This document shows, one piece after another, positions 2-12,577 of a stretch of DNA of 23,916 bases. Within the stretch, counting starts at the first letter, position 1, and every line of letters starts with the position of its first letter. Origin of the DNA: Desulfuromonas sp. SDB (GTDB lineage: Bacteria > SDB-A); the NCBI GenBank assembly GCA_001412365.1, contig LKUE01000263.1, positions 1 to 23,916 on the forward strand, read 5' to 3'. The position numbers and the translations under genes are program-made. Below the pieces are notes generated by a model that was not told the origin of the DNA, ran no database searches, and saw only the letters and a list, made by a program, of their open reading frames with translations.

Positions 2-115
2 TTGAAAAAGCAAAAAATAAAAGTGATTGTAGAAAAAACAGCAGCCGCAGTAACCACTTTCTGTAAACTATCTCCTGAACATAATAAAGCAGGAGCATTT
101 CATTTGACATGCTGA
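2..115 (+). CDS. 3' end of an unidentified gene (5' end outside window)
   Basis: A reading frame is open from the left edge and closes with TGA at 113-115. The 37 visible residues are basic and then mixed, ending in Phe-His-Leu-Thr-Cys. Its last seven bases overlap the ATG of the following DUF362 gene, a typical arrangement for translationally coupled genes, and the AGGAG ahead of that gene lies inside this frame. I do not recognise the family from so short a tail and assign no function. The other forward frame starting at base 1 closes by base 66. The overlap with the next gene is the main reason to think this is real coding sequence. Confidence 0.45.
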   Translation: MKKQKIKVIVEKTAAAVTTFCKLSPEHNKAGAFHLTC

Positions 116-1248
116 AACCCAGGCACCAAGTGGGGGTATATCATACCCCTGATTATTTTTCAGTGGATAAATCCCTGGAATTACTAATTAAGGATTGGGG
201 GGGAGAAGATCAAATTTTTCCAAAAAATTCTACAGTTCTATTAAAGGTAAATTTACTATTTGCCTACCGTCCTGAACAAGCCTGCACCACCCACCCCAAA
301 TTAGTGGAGAGTATTGCCCGGAAATTAATCAAACGTAACAACCGGGTTCTCATAGGGGACAGCCCGGGGGGATGGATATCCCTAAGCACTATGGACAAAA
401 TTTTTACGGTTACCGGGATGAAGAAAGCCGCGATAAATTCAGGAGCTGAATTAATCAGTTTTGACCAGGGAGTAAAACAATATTCAATTCCCCGGGCAGC
501 CAAGTTATTTCAGATAAAATTAACCGATATCATGGAAAAAGTTGATTTCATCATTTCAATCCCCAAACTAAAAACCCATGGTTTAACCTTGCTTACCGGA
601 GCAGTAAAACTTAACTACGGATTCATACCAGGAAGTTTAAAAGGAGAACTTCACGTAAGATTTCCTGATTTCCGTGATTTTGCCGATGTAATTTTAGACC
701 TCAGTGAAGTTTGCCCTTCCGATTTAATCATTGTTGATGCAATACAGTCTATGGAGGGAAATGGACCAGCGGGAGGTACGCCAATCAACACCAGCCTTTT
801 AGTGGGCGGAGTTAACCCCCTGGAGGTTGATTACATCCTGGCAAAAATCATGGGATACACCAATCCTCTGGAAATACCATTTCTTCAACAAGCCCGGCAG
901 AGAAAGTTGCTTAATCCTGAAAAAATAAAACTTCAACTCAGGACAGATTCATGGATTTATCCTGATTTTAAAAAAATAACCAAGCCCGGATTATTTCTTC
1001 CTCCTCACCTCTCCCGGATGCTGCTTAAAATTGCGGGGACAAAGGTGGTGTTTAATTTAGACAAGTGCCAGCACTGCAACCGCTGTATTTTTTCCTGTCC
1101 AGCTAAAGCCCTAGCCAAGGGACCAACTATTGACCGCAGAAAATGTATTTCCTGTTTCTGTTGTCAGGAAAACTGCCAGTATAGTGCAATCTACAGTGAA
1201 AAACCCTGGCTGGGAAAAGTACTGGAAAAGATATGGGGGAATGCTTAA
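109..1248 (+). CDS. DUF362 domain protein with C-terminal 2x[4Fe-4S] ferredoxin domain
   Basis: This 379-residue protein has a DUF362 domain (about residues 40-245) followed by a bacterial-type ferredoxin domain. DUF362 hallmarks are the GDSPGG turn at 83-88, PKLKTH at 152-157 and EGNGPAGG at 216-223. The ferredoxin part has two CxxCxxCxxxC sets: Cys320/323/326/330 and Cys346/349/352/356, so two [4Fe-4S] clusters are expected. No signal peptide or membrane segment is evident, so it is probably cytoplasmic. AGGAG at 91-95 lies 13 bases before the ATG, which is long; coupling to the overlapping upstream frame may help initiation. The ammonia-lyase gene follows after 37 bases on the same strand. 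DUF362 proteins occur widely in anaerobes without a settled biochemical role; electron transfer is inferred from the clusters only. Confidence 0.9.
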   Translation: MLKPRHQVGVYHTPDYFSVDKSLELLIKDWGGEDQIFPKNSTVLLKVNLLFAYRPEQACTTHPKLVESIARKLIKRNNRVLIGDSPGGWISLSTMDKIFTVTGMKKAAINSGAELISFDQGVKQYSIPRAAKLFQIKLTDIMEKVDFIISIPKLKTHGLTLLTGAVKLNYGFIPGSLKGELHVRFPDFRDFADVILDLSEVCPSDLIIVDAIQSMEGNGPAGGTPINTSLLVGGVNPLEVDYILAKIMGYTNPLEIPFLQQARQRKLLNPEKIKLQLRTDSWIYPDFKKITKPGLFLPPHLSRMLLKIAGTKVVFNLDKCQHCNRCIFSCPAKALAKGPTIDRRKCISCFCCQENCQYSAIYSEKPWLGKVLEKIWGNA

Positions 1249-1285: not shown

Positions 1286-2800
1286 ATGGATAAAGTTGTA
1301 ATAACCGGACAAGACACCACCATTGAAGAGGTAATTGCGGTCGGCTGTAATTATGCTAAAGTGGAAATTTCTCCCCAGGCGTTACAAAAGATTAATCAAT
1401 CCCGGAATACGGTGGAAACTCTGTTGAAATCCGATAAATCTTATTACGGTATAAATACAGGGTTTGGTTCTCTGGCGGAGAAGAAAATTCCTCCGGATCA
1501 AGTAACTCAACTTCAGAAAAATTTAGTTCTTTCACACGCCACCGGAGTAGGTCCAATCCTCCCAGAAAAAGTTTCCCGTCTGATGATGTTCTTAAGGGCA
1601 GTAGTGATGGCTAAAGGGTATTCAGGGGTACGGGTAGAGGTCGTGCAAAGATTGATGGATATGCTGAACAATAACGTCCATCCGGTGATTCCAGCGTTCG
1701 GATCAGTGGGGGCTTCCGGGGATCTTGCTCCTCTAGCCCATCTTTCCCTTACCCTGATTGGAGAGGGGGAAGTAATGTGGGAGGGAAACCGCATCCCCAC
1801 TAACCAGTACTTTAGAAAACAAAATCTAAAACCCCTGGAACTTCAAGCCAAAGAAGGACTAGCCCTGCTCAACGGAACTCAGTACATGACTGCCCTGGCT
1901 GTTTTAGCAATTATTAACACTGAACGGCTAATCCAGGCAGCGGATTTAGCAGGGGCATTAACCTTAGAAGCGCTGGATGGTATCCCTGATGCTTTTGATC
2001 ACCGTATCCATCAACTCCGTCAACACCCCGGTCAAATTGAAACCGCCCAGCATATTCGAAAACTTATTGATGGAAGTAAATTAATATATTCTCCATCTCC
2101 CCCTAAACGGGTGCAGGATCCTTACTCTCTACGCTGTCTTCCTCAGGTACATGGAACAGTTAGAGACACCTTGAATTATCTAAAATCCGTAGTCAGCCGG
2201 GAAATAAATGCAGTCACCGATAATCCATTGATCTTTTCCGAGCAGCAGGAAATACTTTCTGGAGGAAATTTTCACGGTCAGCCTATTGCCATTATTATGG
2301 ATCTTCTTTGCTTGGGTCTGGCTAATCTGGGAGGGATATCTGAGAGGAGAATTGATCTCCTTCTGGATTGGCACCGCAGCGGACTTCCTCCCTTTTTGAC
2401 CTCCAATCCAGGAGTGGAATCCGGTTACATGATTGCCCATCTGACTGCAGTTTCCCTGCTTAATATTTTAAAAACAAATTCCTGCCCTTCCAGTTCTGAT
2501 TCCGTTCCCACATCAACAGGCAGAGAAGATCATATCAGTTTTGGATCCAATGCCGCCTGGAAGGCGTATCAATCAACTGATCATCTGTCTAAAGTGCTGG
2601 GGGTAGAGCTTTTAGCGGCATTAAGAGCTATAGATCTGAGAAAGGTAAAAGATAATTTAGGAATACTTACAGGTAAAGCCTACCAGTTGATAAGAAAAAA
2701 AATACCTTTTTATCCTTCCGACCAGATATTAAGCGGTAAAATCAATAAAATTAGCGAGATTATTTTGAAAGGAGAACTTTTTCAAATTTATTCCAGTTAA
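1286..2800 (+). CDS. hutH: Histidine ammonia-lyase (MIO enzyme)
   Basis: This enzyme should remove ammonia from L-histidine to give urocanate using the self-made MIO electrophile. The 504-residue length is normal for the family. Numbering runs almost in step with the well-studied Pseudomonas putida enzyme: YGINTGFG with Tyr54, His84 in LSHATGVG (a histidine-selective position), the MIO triad Ala143-Ser144-Gly145 in GSVGASGDLAPL, Asn196 in LLNGTQ, Gln277 and Tyr280, Arg283, NFHGQP at 328-333, and Glu414 in REDHISFG. AGGAG at 1276-1280 supports the ATG at 1286. It probably shares a transcript with the DUF362 gene upstream. The rest of the histidine pathway (urocanase and later steps) is not in this window. 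A tyrosine or phenylalanine lyase is possible, but His84 and Glu414 favour histidine. Confidence 0.93.
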   Translation: MDKVVITGQDTTIEEVIAVGCNYAKVEISPQALQKINQSRNTVETLLKSDKSYYGINTGFGSLAEKKIPPDQVTQLQKNLVLSHATGVGPILPEKVSRLMMFLRAVVMAKGYSGVRVEVVQRLMDMLNNNVHPVIPAFGSVGASGDLAPLAHLSLTLIGEGEVMWEGNRIPTNQYFRKQNLKPLELQAKEGLALLNGTQYMTALAVLAIINTERLIQAADLAGALTLEALDGIPDAFDHRIHQLRQHPGQIETAQHIRKLIDGSKLIYSPSPPKRVQDPYSLRCLPQVHGTVRDTLNYLKSVVSREINAVTDNPLIFSEQQEILSGGNFHGQPIAIIMDLLCLGLANLGGISERRIDLLLDWHRSGLPPFLTSNPGVESGYMIAHLTAVSLLNILKTNSCPSSSDSVPTSTGREDHISFGSNAAWKAYQSTDHLSKVLGVELLAALRAIDLRKVKDNLGILTGKAYQLIRKKIPFYPSDQILSGKINKISEIILKGELFQIYSS

Positions 2801-3116: not shown

Positions 3117-4640
3117 CTATTCTAATTCCCCTACCTCTTTTTCCACTTCCCGAAGAATTTCACAGCTTTTAACCAGCTTTTTCATGGCATTGTGATCATT
3201 GTACAGGGGTCTGTCCACATCTAAAAATTCAACATATTTTCTAATGATCTGTTTAGCTTTAGTTACTCCCTTGCCAAATTTGTAATCTCTAAAATCAAGT
3301 GCCTGGGCTGCAGCCATAAATTCAATTCCCAGAATTCCGTAAGCATTGTCCAGGATTTGAAAATTTTTAATAGCCGTATTCATTCCCATGGATACAAAGT
3401 CTTCCTGGTCAGCGGCGGCAGGGATAGATTGAATGGAAGCAGGCATGGAAAGGATGCGCTGTTCTACAATCTGCATATCTGCAGTATACTGGCTGAGCAT
3501 CAACCCCGAAAACATTCCCGCCCCCTTGGTTAGAAAAGCAGGTAAACCGACATTCAGAGCAGGATGATTAAGCCGGTTCATTCTTCTTTCACTCATCACA
3601 CTGACCATAGTAATGGCGGCTCCAGCCATATCCATAGGAAGACAAACCGGACTTCCTTGAAAATTTGCCCCGGATAACTGTAAATTTTCTTCAGGAAAGA
3701 ATACTGGATTATCTCCCACTCCGTTTAATTCAATTTCCACCTGGGACCGGGCAAAGGCCAAAGCATCATGGGCGGCTCCGATTACCTGGGGAGTTGACCT
3801 CATCGAATAAGCATCCTGTACTTTGCACTTCAATTTGCCTTCGGCAAGATCTCCTTCCTTAATTAATTTCTGAATGGCTCTAGCTGTCCGCATTGCTCCG
3901 GCAAAACCTCTAATTTGATGCAATTTTACAGTGTACGGTTTCATATTAGCCATCAACGCTTCCAAGGACATGGAGGCGGCTATTTCCGCCTGCTTCAACC
4001 AGTTGTTTGCATCATACAAAAACAATGCACTCATTGCAGTGAGAACATTGGAACCATTTATTGAAGCCAGTCCATCTCTGGCCATTAAACCAGGAATGGC
4101 TATTCCCGCTTTATCCATAGCTTCTTTTCCCGGCATCCGCTGCCCCTTGTAGAAAGCTTCCCCCTCTCCCATCAATAACAGCGCAATTTGGGACATGGGT
4201 GCTAAATCTCCGCAAGCTCCTACCGAACCTTTTTCACAAACCACCGGAGTAACTCCGGAGTTGAGCATATCCACCATGGTCTGAGCGATAACCGGGCGAT
4301 TGCCTGAATTTCCATGAGCAAGCACATTGATTCTTCCCAATATCGCTCCTCTCACCTGGTCAATAGGCATGGGTTCGCCTATTCCTGCGGCATGATTGTA
4401 TATCAAATATTTCTGAAAGTCTTTTATCTGCTCATCATTTAATACCACTTCGGAAAATTCCCCAATCCCGGTATTTACTCCGTACATTATCTCATGCGCT
4501 TCAATTTTCTTCTCCAGCATTGCCCTGCACTTTTTCATTCTCTCCACTGAATCTTTACTCAATTCTACTGGTTCATTTTCTCTGGCGACCTTAATTAAAT
4601 CTTCGATGGTCAAACCCGATCCCTTGATTACATAAGCCAT
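3117..4640 (-). CDS. Divergent HAL/PAL-family ammonia-lyase or aminomutase with Ala-Cys-Gly MIO triad
   Basis: This 507-residue protein belongs to the aromatic amino acid lyase family: Tyr53 in YGVNTGIG, His83 in YNHAAGIG, Asn195 in SINGSN, Gln275, Tyr278 and Arg281, and Glu413 in DQEDFVSMG. The cofactor triad is Ala142-Cys143-Gly144, read from GCT-TGC-GGA with TGC at 4214-4212, instead of Ala-Ser-Gly. A Ser-to-Cys mutant of P. putida HAL is known to mature to an active enzyme, so Cys need not abolish activity. Two further positions differ from classical HutH: the His after Gln-Glu-Asp is Phe414+1, and the Asn-Phe-His stretch is Asn-Phe-Gln (326-328). AAGGAG seven bases upstream supports the ATG. 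It faces hutH across a glutaredoxin-like gene and is clearly not a recent duplicate. The substrate is unknown; lyase on another amino acid or aminomutase are both possible. Confidence 0.88.
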   Translation of the reverse strand: MAYVIKGSGLTIEDLIKVARENEPVELSKDSVERMKKCRAMLEKKIEAHEIMYGVNTGIGEFSEVVLNDEQIKDFQKYLIYNHAAGIGEPMPIDQVRGAILGRINVLAHGNSGNRPVIAQTMVDMLNSGVTPVVCEKGSVGACGDLAPMSQIALLLMGEGEAFYKGQRMPGKEAMDKAGIAIPGLMARDGLASINGSNVLTAMSALFLYDANNWLKQAEIAASMSLEALMANMKPYTVKLHQIRGFAGAMRTARAIQKLIKEGDLAEGKLKCKVQDAYSMRSTPQVIGAAHDALAFARSQVEIELNGVGDNPVFFPEENLQLSGANFQGSPVCLPMDMAGAAITMVSVMSERRMNRLNHPALNVGLPAFLTKGAGMFSGLMLSQYTADMQIVEQRILSMPASIQSIPAAADQEDFVSMGMNTAIKNFQILDNAYGILGIEFMAAAQALDFRDYKFGKGVTKAKQIIRKYVEFLDVDRPLYNDHNAMKKLVKSCEILREVEKEVGELE

Positions 4641-4798: not shown

Positions 4799-6226
4799 AT
4801 GAATAATAAACTGATGGATAAACAATCTGATTCAGAAAATTTAAACGCCTGGAAAATTTTCAAATTTTGGATACCCCTATCCATAACCTGGTTAATGATG
4901 GCTACAGAAGGTCCACTGGTGGCGGCAGTTATCGCCCGATTAGCTTTTCCCACCTATAATTTAGCCGCCTACGGAGTGGCTTTTGCTATTGCTCTTCTGG
5001 TGGAAGCCCCGGTAGTAATGATCATTTCCGCATCTACCGCTTTGGTCAAGGACCGTTGTTCCTATGTTAAACTCAGAAATTTTATTTTTCTTCTAATCCT
5101 GTTAGTTACCTTTATTCAGCTAGTGGTGGTAATTCCACCGGTTTTCAATTTTATCGCCCACCGCATAATTAAATTAGATCCCCGCATCAGCTCTCTAGCT
5201 CACCTGGCAACATTAATTATGCTCCCCTGGCCGGGATCTATCGGATATCGCCGGTTTTATCAAGGAATACTAATCGGTCACCAGCAAACCAGAAAAGTAG
5301 CCCTGGGCACTATCATCCGGCTAATTTCAATGTCCGCTACTGCTTTGATTTTATATAAATTTACTAATTTAAAGGGCGCTTACGTGGGGACCGCAGCGCT
5401 TTCTGCCGGAGTGAGCTTAGAAGCAGCCGCCACTAGATTTATGTCCAGAGAAATTCTCTCTAAGCTTAAACATAAATTTGTGGCTACTGCAGATTTCAGT
5501 TATTCTTTTTTAATTAAATTCTACTACCCACTAGCCTTAACCTCCTATTTGATCCTTGGAATTCATCCCCTGGTAACTTATTTTCTTTCTCAGGGCAGAC
5601 TTTCCATTGAATCACTGGCAATATTTCCGGTACTGAATTCCCTGGTATTCATTTTCCGGAGTTTTGGTTTTTCCTACCAGGAAGTAGGAATTGCATTACT
5701 GGGAAATGACTATAAAAATTATCAACCGCTAAAATCATTTGCGTTTAAACTGGGATTATCCACCACAGTGGCATTAGCCCTGGTGGCATTCACTCCGTTG
5801 AGTATGCTGTGGTTTCATTATGTATCTGGATTATCAGACATTTTGGCAAATCTGGCTATACTTCCATTATCTGTTTTGATTTTAATGCCTGCCCTGACCA
5901 CTTTGCTATCCTGGCAGAGATCATTTTTAGTAAAAGCAGGTTGCACTTATCCCATTACCATAGCCACCGGCTTGGAAGTTTTCATATTGATGTTAGTGTT
6001 GTATGTCGGAATTAACCTATGGGGGATGGTAGGCATAAATGCAGCAGCATTTGCTTTACTGCTGGGCAGAATATCTGCTAACATTTACCTGTTTATACCG
6101 TATTATAGAATAAAAAAGAGAAAGGATATAATTTCAGATAAGTTCGCTAAACTGCCTTCAATTATGAACTGGAGCAGAAGATTATATCATGGTAGAGTAA
6201 CTCCTTTAAAAACTAAAGGGCCCTGA
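4799..6226 (+). CDS. ANK/MATE-like multi-pass membrane transporter
   Basis: This 475-residue protein is very hydrophobic, with about twelve likely membrane segments and a basic C-terminal tail. The opening stretch (about residues 22-90: FWIPLSITW, EGPL, AAYGVAFA, then a charged loop near Lys-Asp-Arg) and the second half (KFYYPLAL near 240) resemble the ANKH/progressive ankylosis and MATE-like members of the MOP flippase superfamily, judged from memory of the family. ANKH moves anionic metabolites such as pyrophosphate, ATP or citrate across membranes; the bacterial substrate is unknown. It is first in a tight operon: its TGA is one base before the transketolase TTG. The ribosome site ahead of the ATG is weak (only GAG), so the start is less certain than for neighbours. 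Alternative: a polysaccharide-type flippase. Confidence 0.7.
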   Translation: MNNKLMDKQSDSENLNAWKIFKFWIPLSITWLMMATEGPLVAAVIARLAFPTYNLAAYGVAFAIALLVEAPVVMIISASTALVKDRCSYVKLRNFIFLLILLVTFIQLVVVIPPVFNFIAHRIIKLDPRISSLAHLATLIMLPWPGSIGYRRFYQGILIGHQQTRKVALGTIIRLISMSATALILYKFTNLKGAYVGTAALSAGVSLEAAATRFMSREILSKLKHKFVATADFSYSFLIKFYYPLALTSYLILGIHPLVTYFLSQGRLSIESLAIFPVLNSLVFIFRSFGFSYQEVGIALLGNDYKNYQPLKSFAFKLGLSTTVALALVAFTPLSMLWFHYVSGLSDILANLAILPLSVLILMPALTTLLSWQRSFLVKAGCTYPITIATGLEVFILMLVLYVGINLWGMVGINAAAFALLLGRISANIYLFIPYYRIKKRKDIISDKFAKLPSIMNWSRRLYHGRVTPLKTKGP

Positions 6227-6227
6227 T

Positions 6228-8255
6228 TTGCATAATAACTACGATCATATCTCCTGGAAATGTATAAATACAATCCGCTTTTTGGCAGTGGACAGCATTG
6301 AGCAAGCTGGTTCAGGTCATCCCGGAACCCCTTTAGGAGCAGCGCCGTTAATATTTATTTTATGGGATAAATTTATAAATCATAACCCTCAATTTCCTAA
6401 ATGGATCAACCGGGACCGGTTTATACTTTCCTGCGGCCATGCCTCCGCTATGCTTTACAGCACCTTACACCTTTACGGTTATCCAATAAGCACAGCTGAT
6501 TTAAAAAATTTCCGGCAACTGAACAGCATTACCCCTGGTCATCCTGAATATCCACTTACCCCTGGAGTTGAGATGACTACCGGTCCTTTAGGCCAGGGTT
6601 TTAGCCATGGGGTGGGAATTGCTTTAGCTGAAAATAATTTAAACTGCCGTCTAAAATCCGGCAACAAACCGGTCGTAGATCATTATACCTATGTGATGAT
6701 TTCAGATGGAGACATTCAGGAAGGGGTATCCAGTGAAGCAGCTAGTTTCGCCGGAAACCTGGGGTTGGGTAAATTGATCTGTCTTTACGACAATAATCAT
6801 ATCCAAATTGAAGGAAGTACTGATCTGGCTTTTAATGAAAATATCAGGGAAAGATTTGAAGCCTATGGATGGCAGGTGATCGGTCCCCTGGATGGATATA
6901 ATTTACAACTATTGGAAAATTCCATCAGAGAAGCTAAAAGTAATACCAGCCAGCCTTCCTTGCTTATATGCAATACCGTAATTGGCTGGGGAAGCCCCCT
7001 TCAGGGAACCGCGGCAGTACACGGTTCACCATTAGGTACGAAAAATACAGCCAAGACAAAATTATTTTATAACTGGCCCAGTGATGAGACTTTCTACGTG
7101 CCCCCGGAAGTATCCCGGCATTGTGATGAAGTTATTCAGCAGAGAAAAGAAGTTTACCTTAGATGGTTGAAAAATTTCCAATCATCCCCCCTCAAGTATA
7201 ACCAGTTATCCAAGAACCTGGAGTATTCATTTGATTTACCAGATGTAGATGATCAGCAGTATTTTTCTGAAAACAGTTTAAATAATAAGCCTCTATCCAC
7301 CAGGGTTTTATCCGGAAAAATTCTAAATTACTTTGCTCATAAAATTGACTTCATCATTGGAGGATCTGCGGACCTGGAGCCTAGTACCAAAACCCATTTA
7401 CAGGATTATGAAGATGTGGACAGTGATCACTGCGGCGGAAGTAATATCCATTTCGGAGTGAGAGAGCATGCCATGGGAGCAATAGCCGGAGGTATTGCCA
7501 TTCATGGAGGTTTACTCCCCTATACTGCAACTTTTCTGACATTTTCAGATTACATGAGACCTCCTATCCGGCTGGCGGCAATGATGGGATTAAAAGTAAT
7601 TTACATATTTACCCATGACAGCATTGGACTGGGAGAAGACGGTCCCACTCATCAACCTATAGAACATCTGATGAATTTAAGAGCGGTCCCCAACCTTACC
7701 CTGATAAGACCTGCAGATGAACCGGAAGTTTACTACGCCTGGAAAGCCGCTTTGTATTTTATCTCCGGTCCGGTAGCTTTAATCCTGTCCAGACAAAAAA
7801 TTCCCCGGTTAGACCGTTCCCTCTGCAGTTCAGGGGAGAACAGCCTGCAGGGAGGATATGTGTTATGGGAAAATTCCGATAGTCTCCCTCAGATAATACT
7901 GATGGGTACAGGTTCTGAACTGATAAAATGTTATCAAGCAGGATTGGAGTTAGCCCGGAGAAATATCCACACCAGGGTAGTATCCATTCCCAGCTGGGAA
8001 ATTTTTGATCAACAAAATATTAGTTATAAAAATTCAGTGTTACCACCTGAAGTGAAGTGCCGGATTTCAGTAGAAGCAGGACAAACTTTAGGTTGGGAGC
8101 ATTATGTGGGTTTAGATGGAGTTTCCATTGGCTTAAACTGTTTCGGCAAAAGTGCTCCCGGAGAAAAATTGTTTAAATATTATAATATTACTGTTGATCA
8201 CATCCTCGCCACTGCAATCGAACTTCTAAGTAAAACCGGAGGTTTACATGACTAA
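6228..8255 (+). CDS. tkt: Transketolase, full length
   Basis: Transketolase moves two-carbon units between sugar phosphates in the non-oxidative pentose phosphate pathway, using thiamine diphosphate and a divalent metal. The 675 residues cover all three domains. Visible landmarks are His31 in SGHPGTPLG, His71, the cofactor motif SDGDIQEG (159-166) ending at Asn189-Asn190, His265 in VHGSPLG, GGSADLEPS (378-386), the catalytic Glu413 in VREHAMG, and His463 and His475 in the THDSIGLGEDGPTHQP segment. The start is TTG, one base after the transporter stop. AAAGGG seven bases upstream supports it, and no in-frame ATG precedes essential sequence. The first Gly of the usual GDG is Ser here (SDG), a mild variation. 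The 3' end overlaps the PRPP synthetase gene by eight bases, indicating coupled translation. Confidence 0.96.
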   Translation: MHNNYDHISWKCINTIRFLAVDSIEQAGSGHPGTPLGAAPLIFILWDKFINHNPQFPKWINRDRFILSCGHASAMLYSTLHLYGYPISTADLKNFRQLNSITPGHPEYPLTPGVEMTTGPLGQGFSHGVGIALAENNLNCRLKSGNKPVVDHYTYVMISDGDIQEGVSSEAASFAGNLGLGKLICLYDNNHIQIEGSTDLAFNENIRERFEAYGWQVIGPLDGYNLQLLENSIREAKSNTSQPSLLICNTVIGWGSPLQGTAAVHGSPLGTKNTAKTKLFYNWPSDETFYVPPEVSRHCDEVIQQRKEVYLRWLKNFQSSPLKYNQLSKNLEYSFDLPDVDDQQYFSENSLNNKPLSTRVLSGKILNYFAHKIDFIIGGSADLEPSTKTHLQDYEDVDSDHCGGSNIHFGVREHAMGAIAGGIAIHGGLLPYTATFLTFSDYMRPPIRLAAMMGLKVIYIFTHDSIGLGEDGPTHQPIEHLMNLRAVPNLTLIRPADEPEVYYAWKAALYFISGPVALILSRQKIPRLDRSLCSSGENSLQGGYVLWENSDSLPQIILMGTGSELIKCYQAGLELARRNIHTRVVSIPSWEIFDQQNISYKNSVLPPEVKCRISVEAGQTLGWEHYVGLDGVSIGLNCFGKSAPGEKLFKYYNITVDHILATAIELLSKTGGLHD

Positions 8256-9378
8256 TACTGACCGTTATTCTCAACATTTCATTTCTCCCGAACAATTTGA
8301 TATAACCAAGAAAAAACCTCTGTTCGGGCCTAATGGATGGATACTATTTGTTGCTTGTAATTCAGGGATTCAATTAGGTCAGGATGTGAAAAATGAATAC
8401 CAGAGAATGCTCAAGGAAAACAACAGTGAGTTAAAAGAAGTTCCTCTGCTGGGCACAAACCAAAATCCAATAACTTCTATATTCGAGGATTCGGAAACTT
8501 GTCCGCGGTTAAGTTGTCATGTAGCCGGTTCAAATGCTTATGTTTTTCAGTGTGTCCACGAAAATATCAGCGGTAACTCCGTCAATGAAAACATACAGCA
8601 GCTTCTGCAGGTAATCAGAACATTAAGAGCTCACCGGGCTCAGACCATAACTGTGGTCACCCCATATGCTCCTTATTCCAGACAGGATAAACCTACTTTT
8701 ATGCAGAGAGAGGCAACTCATTTCCGTTTATTCGTGGACCAGTTGAAGATTTCGGGAGCAGACAATCACTTAACCTACCATCCCCATGCCCTCTCCCTGT
8801 ACGGTCTTTATGAGCCGGACATGAAAGTAATCGCCCTAAGTGGGCTAGATTTATTCATTGATGTTTTCAGCTTTCTGAAAAATCAGCCAAACACAGTAGT
8901 AGTTTCTACTGACTCAGGAGGAGCAAAATTTACCATTCATTATGCCGAGGCGATGAATTTATCTCATGCCATTGGAAATAAATTCAGAAGTAAAAAAGAT
9001 GAAACCCAGATGATTGGCATTATCGGGGATATGGAAAATAAGGAAAAAGCAATTATTACTGATGATGAAACGGTCACCGGATCTTCCTTTCTAAATGTGG
9101 TAAAAGCATTGCATCATAAATACGGAATTAAAGAAATATATGCAGCTATAACCCATATGAAAATCAGGAAGCATCATATCAGCAAGCTAATTGAAGCTCA
9201 TCAGCAGCACGGACTGGTCCAGCTTCATGTGACTGATTCAATCCCCCCCCTGGAAGAAATCAAACAATTAGATTTCATCCACATCCATAGCTTAGCCCAA
9301 AGATTTGCTTCCACTATTAATCGGCTGCACTACAATCAATCGGTTAGTGAAGTATTTTACGATTTAAAAAACAAATAA
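8248..9378 (+). CDS. prs: Long, divergent ribose-phosphate pyrophosphokinase (PRPP synthetase)
   Basis: PRPP synthetase converts ribose 5-phosphate and ATP to PRPP for nucleotide and histidine synthesis. Family signs are PYAPYSRQDKP with Arg145-Gln146-Asp147-Lys148 (ATP site), the following His-rich segment near 178, VSTDSGGAKF (219-228), Lys245 in GNKFRSKK (the usual flexible-loop lysine region), and the PRPP/ribose-5-phosphate loop TDDETVTGSS (271-280). At 376 residues it is some 60 longer than the classical enzyme of about 315, with an added N-terminal stretch. The loop TDDETVTGSS also differs from the usual VDDMIDTGGT. GGAGGT at 8238-8243, inside the transketolase gene, supports the ATG. 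The placement directly after transketolase fits ribose 5-phosphate supply. A related phosphoribosyltransferase-fold protein without kinase activity cannot be excluded. Confidence 0.85.
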   Translation: MTNTDRYSQHFISPEQFDITKKKPLFGPNGWILFVACNSGIQLGQDVKNEYQRMLKENNSELKEVPLLGTNQNPITSIFEDSETCPRLSCHVAGSNAYVFQCVHENISGNSVNENIQQLLQVIRTLRAHRAQTITVVTPYAPYSRQDKPTFMQREATHFRLFVDQLKISGADNHLTYHPHALSLYGLYEPDMKVIALSGLDLFIDVFSFLKNQPNTVVVSTDSGGAKFTIHYAEAMNLSHAIGNKFRSKKDETQMIGIIGDMENKEKAIITDDETVTGSSFLNVVKALHHKYGIKEIYAAITHMKIRKHHISKLIEAHQQHGLVQLHVTDSIPPLEEIKQLDFIHIHSLAQRFASTINRLHYNQSVSEVFYDLKNK

Positions 9379-9382
9379 TTTA

Positions 9383-12300
9383 TCAAGGCAATGTTTTCTT
9401 TGGTTTTTTACTGAAATCTGGCTTCAACGATTGATTTTTGTCAATTTCCTTTAACACTTCTTCAATTGCCCTGTCTAATTGGGGATCAATATTTTGATTA
9501 TATTGTTGAGGGGTTATATCCACCTCAATATCCGGATCAGTTCCATAATTTTCAACTCCCCAGCCCACATCTTTAAACCAGAATGAAAATTCAGGCTGAG
9601 TGGTTATGGTTCCGTCAACCAGCCAATTTCTAGGCCAAATTCCAATAACTCCTCCCCAGGTTCTTCTTCCAATTAATTTGCCCAGTTTCATCAATTTAAA
9701 CGAATGACTGAAAATATCTCCATCCGACCCTGCATGCTCATTGGTAAGAGCCACCATGGGACCGTGCACCGACTCATCAGGATAGGGAGAGTAACCCATC
9801 CATCGGGTCAAATCATAACCCAATCTTTTTCTGGCTAATTTTTCAAGCAATAGACATGAAACATGACCCCCCCCATTGTAACGTACATCTACAATTAAAC
9901 CGGGATAATCAAATTCAGCAAGAAAATAGCGGTGAAATTCAGCATATCCCTGGGGTCCCATATCCGGAACATGAATATAACCTACCTGATTATCTGTTTT
10001 TTGATGCACATATTCCCGGTTTTTCTCCACCCATTGCCTATACCGGAGGGGGGTTTCAGAATCAATAGTATGAACCGTAACCTCTCTCCGTTTGCTTCCG
10101 TCCGCATTGCTAATCTGAATGTTCACTTCATTGTGGGGATAATTAATCAATGTCCGGTAGGGATTCATCTGTACGTCCAGTTTCTTCCCCGCCACCTTAT
10201 GCAGCAACATTCCCTCGGTTAAATTTACCCCCGGGCGTTTTAAAGGATGGGGATGCTGATCTGCCCATGAATCTGCATTGATAATGCTGATTATCCGATA
10301 AGCATCTGCCTGTTCATCGTATTCAAAATCTGCTCCTAAAAAACCTATCCGGTACTGAGGTTTAGGGCGGTAATCACCTCCGAATTCATAGGCATGAGAA
10401 GTTCCCAGTTCTCCCTGCATTTCCCAGATCAGATCAGAAAATTCACTTCGAGAGGCAATTCTGTCCACTAAGGGGAAATAACGGTCATAAATTTTTTCCC
10501 AGTCAATATTGGACATATCCTCAACCCAGTAATATTCTCTCTGCAATCTCCACGCTTCCTTAAACATCTGTTTCCATTCCGCCAAGGGATCCACGGAAAC
10601 CTTGATCCGGGACAAATCTATCCATCCGCTTTCCCGATTGTAGTTTGACTTATCTTGTTTTACCGCATCAGGCTCCATTTCCGTAGAAAGAACTCTGAGT
10701 TTTGAACCTGACTGAATTAAAATAGCACTTCGATCTGCAGATAAAATAAAATCGGATATATGCTCAGAAAACACTTTTTTCTCTAATTTTTTTAAATCAT
10801 ATTTCCATAACCTCGCCTTGGCGGGCGGAGTTATTTGTTCCCTGTCTCTATGTAGGGATCCCTCCACATCAACTTCTGATATAAAAATAGCTTTATCGGT
10901 AATCTGTATGTTTTGATAGATGGATTCATCAAAGGGAACCGGGATTACCCTTTCTGTAATTTTATTTAAATCAATTTCTACAGGTTTTTCATTTTCCTCT
11001 TTTTCAGATTTATCTTCATCAGGTTTAAATCCCCTGGGTTCAGGGATAAAGGGAGAGGTAGTTTCCTCTTGCAGAGTTACCATATAAGGTTTCATCCCTT
11101 TAGGAAAATTTAAATCAAAGTGCAATTGATCATAAACTGGATTGAATATACGGTAGGACAGGAAAAATAAATATTTACCCTGAGGATCAAAAACAGGATT
11201 TACATCATGAAGAACCGGCGCAGTAACCGGCCAGGTTTTATGTTGACCTATTTTCCAAACTTTGATTATAGATTGATGATGTTTTACCGCAAAGGAATAG
11301 GCAACCCATTGACCGTGGGGCGACCAATCAAAACCACCAATTGGTCTATATTTGCTTTGATCAATAACTTCCATCTTCTGTTTTTCCAGATCAATCCAGA
11401 TAATTTCATGCCGGTGGTTGGAAAGAATTATTTGATCAGCAACAGGTGATACTTTTATCTGACCAGGTCTTCCCACATCTAAATTTTCCAATCGAGTTAT
11501 CTTTTGATTTAAACTTAAATCGGCAATTTCCAATCGTTCAAGGTTATCACGGTCACTCATGTATACCATTCTTTTACCGTCGTTTAGAAATCTAACCAGG
11601 CGAACCCGATGCCCTTGCTGCTCATTTAACTGTTGTACTGCCCCTTCCCAGTTTCCCATGACAAATGCCTGCCCCCGGGTAATTAAAGACAGCATACTAC
11701 CCTGCTTATTTAAATCGTAATCTTCCAGATATTTTTCAGGATCAACAAATTTTCTGCTGCGCTGTATATATGAGCTTCGGTACTCAATAGAAATATTATC
11801 GAGTTTGTTTTCTTTCACCTTCAGCAAGTAGATATCCGCACCGTGGTGATACACAATGTTCTCTCCGTCTGAATTAGCATAACGGGCGTAATAATGCTGA
11901 TGTTTGGTATGCTGTTTGAGGTCAGAACCATCAGTCAGGCAGGACCAGATATTTCCTATTCCATCATGATCAGAAATAAAATATATTCTATCCCCAATCC
12001 ACATAGGGGTAGCTAAGTTACCATTTAATTCAATCAGTTTTTCAAAGTTATCATCAGGTCCGATATCAATCCAAATTTCACCAGCAGTACCCCCCTTATA
12101 TCGTTTCCATCTCGCCGGGTCTCCGGTATTCCTTCCAATAACCACTCCCTGGGGATTGAAATCAATACTCCGGGCTGGTCCATAAGGTAGTTTTTTTACT
12201 TGATTTCCTTGCAAATCAACAGAATAAAGCCAGAATGATTTTCTAAACGGCTGCTCCCAGGTGCTGGCAAAAACTACTTCTGCTCCTTTCCACCCCACCA

Positions 12301-12577
12301 CATAACTGAATGCTCCTAAATAGGTTAATCTTCTGGAAATTCCGCCTTCCTGGGGAATTACATAAATTTCAGTAATCCCCTCCTCTCTTCCTGTAAAAGC
12401 GATCCACTTTCCGTCAGGGGAATAACTTAAATGACTGACTTCTCCCAGGTTAGTTGTCAATCTGCAGGCAGTTCCGCCTTGGATATCCACTTTCCAAATA
12501 TCATCTTCAGCAACAAAAGCAATTTGAGAATTTTTAACCGTGGGAAAACGATAATATCCATTTGATTTATTTTTCAA
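9383..12577 (-). CDS. Tricorn-type protease (S41 family with beta-propellers and PDZ)
   Basis: Tricorn trims peptides left by larger proteases. The 1064 residues show the full family layout: a TolB/WD-like propeller (about 10-300, with SPDGKWIAF-type blades), a second propeller (about 310-640), then core, PDZ and second core domains. Catalytic residues match the archaeal enzyme in kind and spacing: Ser727-His728 in ELGTSHAY, the nucleophile Ser951 followed by Asp952 in AGSDGD, and Glu1009 in VENYGTDPDIEV; the Ser-to-Glu interval of 58 equals that in Thermoplasma. No signal peptide is visible, so it should be cytoplasmic. The start is TTG with AGGAGGA at 12588-12582 just upstream. It ends in tandem stops TGA-TAA, four bases from the converging PRPP synthetase gene. 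It follows TldE on the same strand, after 137 bases. Confidence 0.93.
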   Translation of the reverse strand: MKNKSNGYYRFPTVKNSQIAFVAEDDIWKVDIQGGTACRLTTNLGEVSHLSYSPDGKWIAFTGREEGITEIYVIPQEGGISRRLTYLGAFSYVVGWKGAEVVFASTWEQPFRKSFWLYSVDLQGNQVKKLPYGPARSIDFNPQGVVIGRNTGDPARWKRYKGGTAGEIWIDIGPDDNFEKLIELNGNLATPMWIGDRIYFISDHDGIGNIWSCLTDGSDLKQHTKHQHYYARYANSDGENIVYHHGADIYLLKVKENKLDNISIEYRSSYIQRSRKFVDPEKYLEDYDLNKQGSMLSLITRGQAFVMGNWEGAVQQLNEQQGHRVRLVRFLNDGKRMVYMSDRDNLERLEIADLSLNQKITRLENLDVGRPGQIKVSPVADQIILSNHRHEIIWIDLEKQKMEVIDQSKYRPIGGFDWSPHGQWVAYSFAVKHHQSIIKVWKIGQHKTWPVTAPVLHDVNPVFDPQGKYLFFLSYRIFNPVYDQLHFDLNFPKGMKPYMVTLQEETTSPFIPEPRGFKPDEDKSEKEENEKPVEIDLNKITERVIPVPFDESIYQNIQITDKAIFISEVDVEGSLHRDREQITPPAKARLWKYDLKKLEKKVFSEHISDFILSADRSAILIQSGSKLRVLSTEMEPDAVKQDKSNYNRESGWIDLSRIKVSVDPLAEWKQMFKEAWRLQREYYWVEDMSNIDWEKIYDRYFPLVDRIASRSEFSDLIWEMQGELGTSHAYEFGGDYRPKPQYRIGFLGADFEYDEQADAYRIISIINADSWADQHPHPLKRPGVNLTEGMLLHKVAGKKLDVQMNPYRTLINYPHNEVNIQISNADGSKRREVTVHTIDSETPLRYRQWVEKNREYVHQKTDNQVGYIHVPDMGPQGYAEFHRYFLAEFDYPGLIVDVRYNGGGHVSCLLLEKLARKRLGYDLTRWMGYSPYPDESVHGPMVALTNEHAGSDGDIFSHSFKLMKLGKLIGRRTWGGVIGIWPRNWLVDGTITTQPEFSFWFKDVGWGVENYGTDPDIEVDITPQQYNQNIDPQLDRAIEEVLKEIDKNQSLKPDFSKKPKKTLP

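Follow-up and report, generated by a model that had tools for sequence, protein, structure and literature searches.

Enzymes of the histidine ammonia-lyase (HAL) group build their methylidene-imidazolone (MIO) electrophile from an internal tripeptide: the triad cyclises, the ring carbonyl loses water and the serine side chain is eliminated as water. Serine and cysteine are the two residues able to yield MIO by beta-elimination. A gene in a 23,916-nucleotide stretch of DNA from Desulfuromonas sp. SDB (the window, meaning the whole stretch analysed) encodes a lyase with cysteine at the serine position, which raises the question of whether such a protein is a working histidase, an enzyme for another substrate or a homologue that forms no MIO. 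The Cys-type lyase belongs to a large conserved branch that is present in many bacteria and archaea without cultured representatives, and we put the probability that the gene codes for a naturally occurring histidine ammonia-lyase of the Cys type, with MIO made from Ala-Cys-Gly, at roughly 80%. From alignments, a structure model and genomic context we infer MIO formation, H2S loss, histidine as substrate and the reason for two HAL copies here.

The gene occupies positions 3117-4640 on the minus strand and encodes a 507-aa HutH homologue, recognised by PF00221, NF006871 and an AlphaFold2 model; its translation contains KGSVGACGDLAPMSQ. The triad Ala142-Cys143-Gly144 lies at 4209-4217 (minus strand) within the stretch GSVGACGDLAP, which reads GSVGASGDLAP in other lyases. 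Codon 143 is TGC at 4214-4212, as the initial annotation had claimed, and a motif search of the window, with a Cys triad match at 4204-4229 (minus strand), agrees. The source genome, a draft MAG, comprises 433 contigs (98.7% complete) and comes from a phylum represented by four genomes, all of one family. Both of its PF00221 genes are in the window. The second, at 1286-2800 (plus strand), is a canonical HutH with Ala-Ser-Gly (triad at 1712-1720, motif at 1700-1725; 631 bits against TIGR01225, cut-off 539) and is convergent with the Cys-type gene. The genome also encodes hutU (contig C383) and hutI (contig C32), so that the Cys-type gene and hutU lie on different contigs. Elsewhere in the window, a DUF362 protein with a C-terminal 4Fe-4S ferredoxin domain is encoded just upstream of the canonical HAL (109-1248, plus strand). 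A 475-aa protein (4799-6226, plus strand), hydrophobic by eye and unmatched in Pfam even at E = 1, ends one base before a transketolase frame (6228-8255), which precedes a phosphoribosylpyrophosphate-synthetase-like gene (8248-9378) and a 1064-aa frame (9383-12577, minus strand) resembling a tricorn-type protease with a beta-propeller and a C-terminal protease domain.

The Ala-Cys-Gly triad was initially thought to be rare, and this did not survive a wider survey. A contig scan with search peptides that left out residue 143 gave 546 confirmed related stretches, the best 80 of which share 80-84% identity; their MAGs carry the labels Bacteroidota, Chlorobiota, Aminicenantota, Zixiibacteriota, Fibrobacterota, Thermoplasmatota and Heimdallarchaeota, along with a small number of others. 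Position 143 is Cys (TGC/TGT) in 46 of these best 80 and Ser (TCN or AGY) in 34. With a pattern permitting TCN or TGY at codon 143, a sample of 386 genomes from across the bacterial families gave the Cys motif in 27 (19 family groups), and the motif occurs in 50 of 292 genomes sampled outward from the Thermoplasmatota archaeon G103, including most of its nearest relatives. These two surveys are motif searches that record presence and not an unbiased Cys:Ser ratio; the archaeal members were located through the Cys motif itself, and the 100% Cys among them should not be read as a frequency. Of the suggestion that the triad might prove common and already characterised, only the first half holds: no paper describing a natural Ala-Cys-Gly lyase was found in the literature searched, and a review of MIO enzyme evolution contains none of the words Ala-Ser-Gly, ASG, motif or cysteine (PMC9002059).

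After duplicate removal, the Cys-type protein belongs to a clade of 134 sequences with at least 53% identity to it; all remaining lyases have at most 42%, with none between. Position 143 in the clade is Cys in 99 sequences and Ser in 35, and nothing else, while the 55 lyases outside the clade all have Ser at the triad centre (two as Ser-Ser-Gly and one as Val-Ser-Gly). In these three outside homologues (L097, L105 and L098; Ser-Ser-Gly in G055 and G010, Val-Ser-Gly in G019) the Ala position varies and Ser is constant. In a tree built with column 143 left out, a branch with full support separates the clade from the other lyases. The expectation that Ala-Cys-Gly might mark a clade is thus borne out in that Cys is confined to one clade, but not in that the clade has 35 Ser members with repeated interchange: the best tree has 12 Ser/Cys changes, at least three of them forced by branches with at least 95% support, and smaller earlier trees have 11 and 10. 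Cys was probably the original state in the clade, with Ser regained several times, judging from the sequences at hand. All of the deepest splits in the clade have Cys, the root state is Cys with a probability of 0.99 under a two-state likelihood model, and one-way change needs 15 steps from Cys to Ser and 24 from Ser to Cys; these values come from a tree with many weak inner branches, some deep members found through the Cys motif and long outgroup branches. A single step separates TGY codons from either of the Ser codon boxes, and the Ser members use both boxes.

The active site is preserved around the variant residue. The alignment shows that the protein retains Tyr53, His83, Asn195, Gln275, Tyr278, Arg281, Phe327 and Glu413, which correspond to the HAL catalytic set Tyr53, His83, Asn195, Gln277, Tyr280, Arg283, Phe329 and Glu414 in P. 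putida numbering. The initial annotation had named all of these except Phe327 and had argued for a working enzyme rather than a decayed one; the residues are confirmed, and the view of a working enzyme is supported. Tyr53, His83, Asn195, Gln275, Tyr278, Arg281, Phe327, Ala142, Gly144 and Asp145 are invariant in the 109 clade members aligned, Cys and Ser alike, and Glu413 is present in 108 of them with one gap. The catalytic Tyr53 codon (4482-4484, minus strand) is invariant in the other HALs sampled as well. Two His residues are replaced, by Gln328 (3657-3659, minus strand; Gln in 109/109 clade members and in 0/55 other HALs) and Phe415 (3396-3398, minus strand; His in 50 of the 55 other HALs). 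The initial annotation had read these two residues as signs of an unusual pocket. They do differ from those of other HALs, but equally so in Ser members; they therefore do not go with Cys and are clade markers independent of it. Raw mutual information gave a Cys/Ser signal at positions 234-272 (e.g., R/L versus N at 257 and C versus L at 259). Independent-pair tests, with only three supported contrasts, gave no signal, and this co-variation is therefore treated as shared ancestry; among the 109 clade members, no residue tied to the Cys/Ser state was found after allowing for the tree.

In profile comparisons, the protein matches PF00221 with 524 bits (cut-off 27.3) over profile positions 1-465 of 466, and is filed as a variant of that superfamily because its triad is Ala-Cys-Gly and not the MIO-precursor Ala-Ser-Gly. 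It narrowly passes the broader HAL subfamily model NF006871 (525.9 bits, cut-off 524). The AlphaFold2 model (pLDDT 93) aligns with P. putida HAL (1b8f) over 499 residues with a Z score of 46.2 and an rmsd of 1.8; a tyrosine aminomutase scores as high in this comparison, so the fold alone carries no substrate information.

Genomic context points to histidine degradation. In three samples of genomes that have a clade member, urocanate hydratase (hutU) is encoded in 51/55, 18/19 and 29/30, and 32 of 39 genomes have hutI at or over the cut-off. Sixteen genomes in the first set have no other PF00221 gene (nine with the Cys and seven with the Ser form), and all 16 encode hutU. The Cys form is also the sole PF00221 gene in all 30 motif-picked genomes related to G103, two of which are shared with the set of 55; 29 of the 30 encode hutU, which lies within about 450 bases of the Cys HAL in 18, convergent or on one strand. 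This pairing, often as the only lyase beside hutU, further supports the view of a working enzyme, with evidence that comes mostly from MAGs. In locus L213 the HAL frame starts right at the end of the hutU frame and in L221 the two are 18 bases apart, on one strand in each case; the pair is convergent in L078, from a chromosome record (CP070724.1). Genomes G178 and G315 have canonical HAL, Cys-type HAL, hutU and hutI in succession on one strand with a few other genes between. Across the 386 bacterial genomes, hutU occurs in 24 of 27 with the Cys motif versus 123 of 359 others (Fisher p 2e-8, which is optimistic because the genomes are related). Two forms of urocanate hydratase were seen with TIGR01228, one of about 550-570 aa scoring 750-1000 bits and one of about 670-690 aa scoring 400-450 bits, and Cys-type HALs pair with both (G000:C383, G178, G594 and others). 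Histidyl-tRNA synthetase (hisS) lies near the clade HAL in 48 loci (including L003, L005, L010 and L061), mostly directly upstream on the same strand; 45 are from Bacteroidota and the others include Chlorobiota and one Heimdallarchaeota MAG. The neighbouring genes may share regulation by histidine. In some Bacteroidota the canonical HAL sits between hisS and the clade HAL. The other archaeal neighbours (pheT, glnS, tetraether lipid synthase, TPR proteins and aminotransferases) were seen to share no pathway.

The most serious alternative, though an unlikely one, is that members of the clade form MIO and act mainly on another imidazole or aromatic amino acid, leaving histidine to the canonical HutH where both exist. 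Such a division of labour would suit the coexistence of canonical and clade HALs, seen in this window as well as in numerous other genomes, the score of the Cys-type protein against the curated hutH equivalog TIGR01225 (499.2 bits, under the cut-off of 539.15) and the clade-specific changes S82N, H328Q, H415F, T197S and Q198N. The clade differs from other HALs at 16 otherwise conserved positions. It fits poorly with the sole-PF00221 genomes (16 and 30, with two in common), all but one of which encode hutU, often adjoining. Models for aminomutases, PAL and TAL are far from passed (score/cut-off of 358/501 for TIGR03832, 331/800 for TIGR04475, 195/519 for TIGR01226 and 325/700 for FlxA). The HAL substrate-binding residue His83 (4392-4394, minus strand) and Glu413 (3402-3404, minus strand; HAL Glu414) are kept throughout, and changes at the equivalent residues (H82L and E411D) abolish the activity of G. 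kaustophilus HAL (PMC11432326). Histidine is the likeliest substrate for the clade. In the window's own genome, which has a canonical HutH, the Cys-type copy could have another role.

A natural Cys-type histidase would most likely work as follows. The Ala142-Cys143-Gly144 loop would self-cyclise as in other HALs, and the side-chain sulfur of Cys143 would be lost by beta-elimination, as H2S instead of water, with the same MIO electrophile as the outcome. Together with the standard HAL residues, MIO would then remove ammonia from L-histidine, and the resulting urocanate may be processed further by the HutU and HutI encoded in the same genome. There is reportedly a laboratory precedent for this maturation, since Langer, Lieber and Retey are said to have found in 1994 that an engineered P. 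putida HAL with S143C matures to the fully active wild-type enzyme. The MIO-forming reading is preferred because only Ser and Cys occur at position 143 (n = 134), and a site that was losing MIO should drift to Ala, Gly or Thr. Repeated Ser/Cys interchange with unchanged catalytic residues suggests that the two forms are functionally equivalent, and Ser/Cys-only interchange, an unchanged active site and genomes in need of a histidase fit Cys-derived MIO and little else.

Two other views of the cysteine are harder to sustain. It is improbable that MIO formation in the clade is reversible or sulfide-responsive, making the enzyme a histidase switched by sulfide or redox state; in sulfidic, anoxic cells MIO might then exchange with a Cys or thiol-adduct state by gain or loss of H2S, and Ser forms might arise where such control is not needed. 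Also improbable is that Cys143 yields no MIO at all and that the protein works as a thiol enzyme or is a HAL homologue with a regulatory, non-catalytic role. The deviation from a tripeptide described as strictly conserved (PMC3903478) would be in line with the loss of MIO, but Cys alternates with Ser only, the Cys form can be the sole HAL beside hutU, and all catalytic residues are kept together with Asp145, a residue studied structurally in P. putida as D145A (1gk3). The maturation that is said to occur in the S143C mutant likewise counts against a protein without MIO. Purifying selection, which adds to the support for a working enzyme, is evident in close Cys-Cys pairs, with dN/dS of 0.02-0.06, similar to close Ser pairs; only close pairs were used because in distant high-GC pairs synonymous saturation and GC bias inflate the ratio over all pairs (up to 0.49). 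An error of sequencing or assembly might be suspected in a window from a draft MAG, as might a decaying pseudogene, but both are ruled out by the survey, with TGC or TGT in 99 distinct Cys sequences of one clade from independent assemblies, by the full-length open frame and by the low dN/dS.

The interest of these results rests with the clade, of which the protein described here is one of many members. Cys in a large bacterial and archaeal clade contrasts with the strictly conserved Ala-Ser-Gly of the literature (PMC3903478), and annotation motifs that require Ser will miss Cys-type enzymes. Judged on sequence, the clade would fill the histidine-degrading step of many uncultured lineages in which hutU occurs without canonical hutH. 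About a dozen Ser/Cys interchanges provide a ready natural experiment on MIO formation.

Among known systems, P. putida HutH (1b8f) and G. kaustophilus HAL share a whole-length fold and catalytic residues with the Cys-type lyase and, at the clade level, an association with hutU and hutI. The Cys-type lyase differs from them in having Ala-Cys-Gly for Ala-Ser-Gly, about 33% identity, a score under the TIGR01225 cut-off, and Asn82, Gln328 and Phe415 in place of Ser, His and His. The best PDB sequence match, the archaeal HAL of Thermoplasma acidophilum (7tqr; E 7e-88), has 34% identity and falls outside the Cys clade; its deposited chain has a modified triad residue (X in the alignment). MIO aminomutases such as the Pantoea phenylalanine aminomutase AdmH belong to the same superfamily, but the Cys-type lyase scores far under the aminomutase cut-offs. 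AdmH has a natural triad change to Thr-Ser-Gly, which is at the Ala position and keeps the precursor Ser. The engineered P. putida S143C has the same Cys at the MIO serine, as a laboratory mutant, whereas the Cys of the clade is natural, widespread and probably ancestral.
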